A DNA stretch of 64,000 bases from Streptococcus ruminantium. GTDB lineage: Bacteria; Bacillota; Bacilli; Lactobacillales; Streptococcaceae. The notes below the pieces were generated by a model. It saw only the letters and a list, made by a program, of their open reading frames with translations, was not told the origin of the DNA and searched no databases. Position numbers and translations under genes: made by a program. The first letter of the stretch is position 1, and every line of letters begins with the position of its first letter. The stretch is taken from assembly GCF_003609975.1 (NCBI RefSeq), contig NZ_AP018400.1, positions 1,686,501-1,750,500 of the forward strand, read 5' to 3'. Below, in pieces: positions 17,805 to 18,325 of the stretch.

Positions 17805-18305
17805 TTATTTAACCGTCGTCAATAGGTAATCCCCTCTTTTCACCTGAGATTCTTGTGTGAATAAAACATCTGTGTAGTCAGCTGTATTAGCCACAATGAT
17901 TGGAGTGATGATAGGCAGACCTGCTCTACGAATCAAATCCATATCAAAGGAAGAGAGTTTTTGCCCGGCTTCCACTCTATCTCCGACTTCAACAAAGTTG
18001 TCAAAACCTTTACCGTTAAGTGAAACAGTATCCATACCGATATGAATCAGGAGTTCTGCACCATTTTCCGTACGAAGTCCAATCGCATGTCCTGTTGGGA
18101 AAACAAGGGTGACCTCTGCATTTGTTGGAGCATAGACTACACCTTCTGTTGGTTCAACGGCAATACCATTCCCTAGAGCACCTGAAGCAAAAACTTCATC
18201 TGGTACATCAGCAAGGGGAACTACCTTACCTGTCAAAGGACTACCAATAATTTCTTGTTTGATTTTCTTTAATGTTGGAACAGACTCCGCCGGAGTCTCC
18301 TCTAC
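17805..18305 (-). CDS. PTS beta-glucoside EIIA domain, -1 frame extension of the EIIBC gene
   Basis: 166 codons, open in the -1 frame from the slippery heptamer to the stop at 17805. The EIIA-Glc-type domain starts [18 protein letters not shown] and carries the phospho-acceptor His in [13 protein letters not shown] linker, [18 protein letters not shown], joins it to EIIBC as in one-chain EIIBCA proteins. A stand-alone start at the TTG at 18236 is possible but would remove the first conserved residues (GSP) of the fold and has only a poor Shine-Dalgarno. Frameshifted product: 470 + 166 = 636 residues, the family's normal EIIBCA length. A fixed frameshift mutation is the alternative. Confidence 0.8.
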
Positions 18306-18325
18306 TTTTTTTCAGTCGGTCCTCC
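18282..18325 (-). promoter_or_regulatory. Candidate programmed -1 frameshift signal (dnaX type)
   Basis: Minus strand, 5' to 3': GGAGG (18321-18325), 9 nt, slippery A AAA AAG (18305-18311) read in zero frame as GAA AAA AAG, stop TAG, and a stem-loop AGACTCC GGC GGAGTCT (18282-18298) starting 6 nt after the heptamer. In E. coli dnaX the same heptamer is stimulated by an SD-like sequence about 10 nt upstream and a hairpin 5-6 nt downstream. A -1 slip gives GTA GAG GAG ACT and enters the EIIA frame exactly. Confidence 0.65.

Follow-up and report, generated by a model that had tools for sequence, protein, structure and literature searches.

A candidate dnaX-type programmed -1 frameshift signal between the EIIBC and EIIA frames of a Streptococcus PTS gene

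Organization of the EIIBC-EIIA locus

The window analyzed here is a stretch of 64,000 nt from the genome of Streptococcus ruminantium. The features considered all lie on its minus strand and are given in window coordinates:

19912..20745, minus strand: BglG/LicT-type antiterminator (CAT_RBD + 2 PRD), upstream in the same operon-like cluster
18302..19714, minus strand: EIIBC, beta-glucoside-type PTS permease (Pfam PTS_EIIB + PTS_EIIC), zero-frame product of 470 aa ending in TEKK and then TAG
18321..18325, minus strand: Shine-Dalgarno-like GGAGG, 9 nt 5' of the heptamer
18305..18311, minus strand: slippery heptamer A_AAA_AAG in zero-frame register GAA AAA AAG (A7 run, 18312-18306)
18302..18304, minus strand: zero-frame stop TAG, immediately 3' of the heptamer
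18282..18298, minus strand: hairpin 6 nt 3' of the heptamer, putative stimulator (arm AGACTCC, 18298-18292; loop GGC, 18291-18289; arm GGAGTCT, 18288-18282)
17805..18305, minus strand: EIIA in the -1 frame, 166 codons plus TAA (17807-17805), without its own start at the domain boundary (Pfam PTS_EIIA_1, 3e-51)
15961..17643, minus strand: carboxylesterase, downstream

Read on the minus strand, the zero frame of EIIBC closes GAA AAA AAG TAG. The earlier note had placed this stop directly after GAA AAA AAG with EIIA in exactly the -1 frame, and had described the heptamer A AAA AAG, a GGAGG 9 nt 5', a 7-bp stem 6 nt 3', and products of 470 and 636 aa; all of these were found where it had put them, and the lengths calculated from the reading frames agree (the joint EIIBCA product, with -1 reading from 18305, would have 636 aa). 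The EIIBC start was set at the ATG at 19714; the automatic ORF list places it 15 codons earlier.

The best NCBIfam match of the locus was TIGR01995 (beta-glucoside IIABC), divided over both halves, which cover positions 1-446 and 464-616 of the 618-position profile with EIIB, EIIC and EIIA-1 in matching order. Each half scored under the whole-protein cutoff of 614.7 (448.2 and 204.4), because the gene is split. KHCVTRLRF in EIIBC, which we take to be the EIIB cysteine motif, and HIGMDT in the 166-aa EIIA, presumably with a role in phosphorylation, were both located. The same genome (2,090,539 bases, one contig) contains 29 AAAAAAGTAG sites; the junction site alone is flanked on both sides by open frames of 100 codons or more (zero frame upstream, -1 frame downstream), and the 45 nt following it gave the most stable fold of the 29.

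Of 9 named loci, 7 have a LicT-type gene ahead of EIIBC; the upstream sequence of L036 is too short, and no match was seen in L040. The carboxylesterase follows in 4 of the 9, of both allele types (L034, L036, L038, L039), and has the same place in the split loci L034, L038 and L039. Two near-identical GGATTGTTACTG...CAGGCAAAACC motifs were seen by eye on the minus strand (19814-19841 and 20832-20859), the former between EIIBC and the LicT-type gene and the latter ahead of the LicT-type gene; we take them to be LicT/BglG antiterminator (RAT) sites. At L042:956-1769, from a metagenome-assembled genome (MAG) with a split EIIBC, the upstream LicT-type gene matched as two overlapping pieces in different frames, which could be either a lesion or an assembly error.

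Distribution of the split allele

Streptococcus genomes (n = 284) were scanned for a pattern that fixes 25 bases: A7, G, TAG, all of one stem arm and six of the seven bases of the other; 2 mismatches were permitted. The pattern was found in 7 of the 284, every match having zero mismatches, and the reversed-pattern control gave 0 among the matches listed. Shortening the pattern by one base and allowing 3 mismatches, across 335 family genomes (51 from outside Streptococcus), added one unrelated site only, a variant stem in G274. This was rejected, as the hairpin lies between genes, precedes a T run and has no EIIA frame after it.

A DNA search of the 284 Streptococcus genomes gave a match in 230, and the best 29 loci of other genomes were analyzed. 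In 6 of these 29 the EIIBC and EIIA frames are offset by the same step, with the same GAAAAAAAGTAG; the other 23 are in one frame. Among 41 named loci examined, 4 were split likewise (L034, L038, L039 and L042). These come from S. suis strains DE512T1, 2256 and 15 and from the uncultured Streptococcus MAG, and seem to coincide with four of the 7 split genomes. The remaining 37 comprised 26 single-frame loci, 8 without an EIIA match and 3 with a frame offset of another kind (L045, L064, L072). In L045 (an S. mitis isolate) the frame step between EIIBC and EIIA is 2, the break lies near the EIIC end, and the linker A7 and hairpin are missing; this is probably an ordinary lesion.

At the protein level, record P0001 has 470 aa, is 99% identical to the window EIIBC (three residue differences by eye) and has the same TEKK end. 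It probably comes from another strain of the same species, so that at least one more strain would be split; no fused protein near 99% identity occurred among the best 120 hits. An A8 run in related genomes, which the earlier note had held to speak for a plain one-base deletion, was not seen: the A7-TAG-stem arrangement was found in the 7 genomes, and P0001 also stops at TEKK.

EIIBC relatives were classified among the matches listed (n = 211, from two lists with the best 120 each of about 8000 hits): 193 were fused, 16 were EIIA-less and ended exactly in EKK, and 2 were short with other ends (P0161, P0206). From their EKK ends, the 16 EIIA-less records are probably split. Orphan EIIA ORFs also exist, and fit this reading of the EIIA-less records; two lie on contigs equal in size (107700 and 7888) to those of split EIIBC records (P0130/P0214 and P0183/P0244). 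One orphan EIIA, P0224, stands for 180 contigs and another, P0213, for 58 member sequences; both were apparently called from GTG codons in the linker. Not one of the 16 EIIA-less relatives has a source-given name; a possible reason is that such genes are taken for broken ones in annotation.

Comparison of close split and fused relatives

Five close relatives are single-frame (G262, G256, G253, G009 and G050). The A7 run is present in 12 of 12 close relatives (7 split, 5 fused). The slippery heptamer A_AAA_AAG stands in zero-frame register in 7 of 7 split alleles and occurs likewise in all 5 fused alleles, the linkers of which differ at other positions and lack the stem. As A7 is common to both allele types, the length of the A run does not set the frame. 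A homopolymer phase-variable gene was considered and rejected, the tract length being the same in all 12.

The EIIA frame is open and exactly 166 codons long in 7 of 7 split alleles. NG86 dN/dS values for EIIA between split lineages, with the first 10 codons omitted, were 0.036/0.72 (G134-G243), 0.042/1.51 (G134-G258) and 0.19/1.43 (G000-G134); three split-fused pairs were without usable dS. These values show that EIIA evolves under purifying selection. At the DNA level the split lineages share 68-79% identity for EIIBC and 70-88% for EIIA, ranges which omit the near-identical pairs G249/G261 and G257/G258. The 30 nt beginning at the heptamer have 25 of 30 invariant columns vs. a gene-wide mean of 16.5 (sd 4.5); stretches equally or more conserved occur at the protein N-terminus and in one part of EIIA. 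Two properties expected of a frameshift signal are present, in that the motif and its surroundings are conserved among orthologues beyond coding needs, and the -1 product is a selected coding sequence (166-aa EIIA, low dN/dS).

The locus could also be a normal EIIBCA gene that an ordinary indel in the A run, or a mistake in sequencing, has split, with EIIA left as a relic. This would accord with the predominance of fused relatives (193 of 211 among the matches listed) and with the general proneness of A runs to indels. We nevertheless judge it very improbable. The identical split recurs in 7 assemblies (G257 and G258 being near-identical) and in the 99% identical protein P0001, the 5 close fused relatives have A7 as well, EIIA is without further stops and under purifying selection at high synonymous divergence, and a stem beyond coding needs is confined to the split alleles among the 12 close relatives.

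Whether EIIA could be made as a separate protein, by re-initiation or from its own start, and act in trans depends on the start-type codons available. Some alleles have a GTG or TTG close to the junction (at codon index 1 for G134 and G243, 5 for G261, 23 for G000), and gene callers predict orphan EIIA proteins. These positions are not conserved, however, and in G249 and G258 the first ATG, GTG or TTG stands at codon index 43 and 37, respectively, inside the EIIA domain. Own ATG, GTG or TTG codons are therefore excluded as a general route, which bears out the proposal of the earlier note that EIIA has no usable conserved start. As G249 and G258 are two distinct lineages, neither with a codon able to start a complete EIIA, separate synthesis is unlikely; re-initiation would in addition leave the slippery heptamer and hairpin unexplained, and we consider this route extremely improbable.

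Folding and conservation of the hairpin

The 45 nt from the heptamer end were folded and compared with 1000 draws of synonymous codons (pooled codon usage). Split alleles gave z = -4.5, -3.0, -2.3, -4.3, -3.3, -3.5 and -4.5, where G257 and G258 are identical over the tested 45 nt and the 7 alleles are related, not independent. The fraction of draws as stable was 0.024 for G261, 0.013 for G249 and ≤0.007 for the other split alleles. The 5 fused alleles gave z = -0.32, -0.30, -0.36, 0.12 and 0.01. The hairpin is therefore stronger than the synonymous-codon expectation in 7 of 7 split and 0 of 5 fused close relatives, and by this resampling selection acts on the hairpin beyond the amino acid sequence. 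Plain dinucleotide shuffles of a 69-nt stretch indicated moderate structure only (z = -1.89, 6 of 200 shuffles as stable), and an Rfam scan over 12000-26000 at gathering scores gave no match.

The stem stands 6 nt 3' of the heptamer in all 7 split alleles, with 7 pairs in each but G261, which has 6 (the outermost is unpaired). The loop is variable (GGC, AAA, AGT, TGA, ACA, TAA). Covariation was not found: no two-sided change occurred in the 7 pairs across 6 distinct sequences, and 6 of the 7 pairs never vary. All 6 distinct sequences keep the codons GAG, ACT and GAG in the stem, and the loop proline codon varies. As background codon invariance is high (28 of 106 codons overall, 16 of 32 two-fold codons), codon counts alone are weak, and folding is the stronger evidence. 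The anatomy of the junction, its conservation, and the selection on EIIA and on the hairpin all follow from these comparisons of sequence.

GGAG lies 10 nt 5' of the heptamer in 6 of 6 distinct split alleles, 3 of which have the full GGAGG. Stimulators of this Shine-Dalgarno-like type are placed 6-17 nt upstream of frameshift sites in PMC4066793. The same GGAG stands 8-10 nt 5' in 5 of 5 fused relatives, and the site was rejected as discriminating evidence. Conservation of A7 with compensatory stem changes, and flanking signals that tell a programmed shift from a plain indel, had been put forward in the earlier note. A7 is conserved in all 7 split genomes and the hairpin is specific to split alleles among the 12; the compensatory changes did not appear, as the arms do not vary, and GGAGG lost its value as a discriminator with the GGAG of the fused alleles.

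The hairpin could serve another purpose, e.g. as a transcription terminator of the opposite strand, the frame break being incidental. The plus strand reads as the stem, 7 nt and T7, and a consensus scan rates it terminator-like. A T run 7 nt away from the stem is poor for intrinsic termination, the 5 terminator-like sites found compare with 3.0 (sd 1.9) in shuffles, and across the 12 close relatives stem and frame break are either both present or both missing. The likelihood left to this explanation is close to negligible.

RNA polymerase slippage on A7 (transcriptional realignment) would restore the frame through mixed mRNAs. A homopolymer is present, and such slippage is known at A runs, with An n > 7 given in PMC3711429. 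Here none of the 7 genomes has a run longer than 7; the conserved hairpin at 6 nt and the upstream Shine-Dalgarno-like site suit ribosomal slippage; and A7 is kept without the hairpin in fused alleles, which have no need for A7. Transcriptional slippage is thus improbable, if less so than the other rivals to a ribosomal shift set out above.

Alternation of split and fused alleles

On an EIIBC tree of 50 representatives (15 split), the split/fused label alternates 11 times, at least 9 of which are forced by well-supported branches. Clustering of the split label is barely above that of shuffled labels (42 of 500 shuffles as low). Since fused forms are commoner among the listed proteins and the labels alternate, the transporter can do without the mechanism, and another origin is conceivable for some EIIA-less records. 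In P0196, P0174, P0135 and P0139 the EIIBC halves resemble different subgroups by eye, a mosaic look which suggests recombination within the gene. Recombination probably moves the linker between EIIBC backgrounds.

In the fused alleles L007-L010 and L012, a -1 shift at the heptamer would run into a stop two codons on (VR* or DS*), and the -1 product would be about the length of EIIBC. A natural frame toggle can be imagined, in which the two allele types could make almost identical pairs of proteins but differ in which of the pair is the default, and in which lineages repeatedly exchange types. Split alleles would then yield EIIBCA by the -1 shift, and fused alleles would yield EIIBCA in the zero frame and EIIBC by the -1 shift. 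If this were true, allele exchange would set the ratio of transporter with vs. without EIIA; we offer the toggle as a tentative and rather unlikely proposal.

Proposed mechanism

The junction is very probably, on these comparisons, a dnaX-type programmed -1 ribosomal frameshift signal in a Streptococcus PTS gene. Many ribosomes would decode GAA AAA AAG and terminate at TAG, giving the 470-aa EIIBC. The hairpin 6 nt downstream, aided by the Shine-Dalgarno-like GGAG(G), would hold ribosomes on A_AAA_AAG, and some of those held would re-pair one base back and continue in the EIIA frame, giving the 636-aa EIIBCA. The cell would then hold two forms of the transporter, one of which lacks an EIIA of its own. 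We infer the slippage itself, its efficiency, its physiological role and both proteins from the sequence.

PTS permeases function as dimers, and EIIA domains of the glucose type are able to act in trans. The EIIA-less form would receive its phosphoryl group from the EIIA of an EIIBCA subunit with which it dimerizes, or from a different glucose-type EIIA. The same genome has two more EIIBCA-like genes (L002 and L003), which could supply EIIA in trans. In E. coli, which has one tRNA-Lys, slippage of this tRNA occurs on A_AAA_AAG (PMC5009743). The junction sequence is consistent with such slippage, and its hairpin and Shine-Dalgarno-like site are of the type set out in PMC4066793. The genome studied here encodes tRNA-Lys with the CUU as well as the UUU anticodon; the CUU species beside UUU could lower slippage, which counts against high efficiency.

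Comparison with known systems

E. coli dnaX (tau/gamma) is alike in A_AAA_AAG, an upstream Shine-Dalgarno-like site and a downstream hairpin (PMC3711429), and in having two products with a common N-terminus. It differs in that the shift gives the shorter protein in dnaX and the longer at the PTS junction, in that the PTS host has two tRNA-Lys species, and in that the gene families are unrelated. In the IS3-family, the shift fuses a second domain into a longer product, a polarity like that of the PTS junction. IS3-family orfA-orfB also combines a frameshift motif with a downstream stem (PMC4066793), but is a mobile-element transposase, whereas the gene studied here is a chromosomal sugar transporter. 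E. coli copA is likewise a transporter gene in which a frameshift gives a second product of other domain content; there the shift yields a short 70-aa putative chaperone, whereas the PTS shift would add a complete EIIA domain (PMC5009743 for copA). BglF/BglP-type EIIBCA (TIGR01995) shares the B-C-A order and an adjoining LicT/BglG antiterminator, and 23 of the 29 best genome loci have it as one uninterrupted frame, in contrast to the conserved frame break here.

No published PTS frameshift of this kind was found in the openly accessible literature searched. The words PTS and phosphotransferase are absent from the main text of PMC3711429 and from 300,000 of the 475,107 characters of PMC5009743. 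Among the papers found, the nearest case is a -1 shift suggested speculatively for gutR and gutM of Pediococcus, between the two genes (PMC5723342). In a frameshift screen of 36 selected genomes, reduced synonymous variability was reported for 2 of 56 non-mobile clusters, and the shifted product was shorter in 57 of 69 clusters (PMC4066793). As far as these searches show, the PTS gene family is new to programmed frameshifting; the type of mechanism is already known, and the pattern of split and fused alleles is unusual.

Significance

Few well-supported programmed frameshifts are found in chromosomal non-mobile bacterial genes. The PTS case is conserved across Streptococcus lineages, and the shift would extend the product instead of truncating it. 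Such a signal is easily missed, as the 16 EIIA-less relatives listed carry no source-given names. If the proposed ribosomal frameshift is true, it would set the stoichiometry of a PTS permease vs. its phosphoryl donor, and the mixture of EIIBC and EIIBCA would alter the phosphoryl supply per transporter and, presumably, the phosphorylation of the neighboring LicT-type antiterminator.
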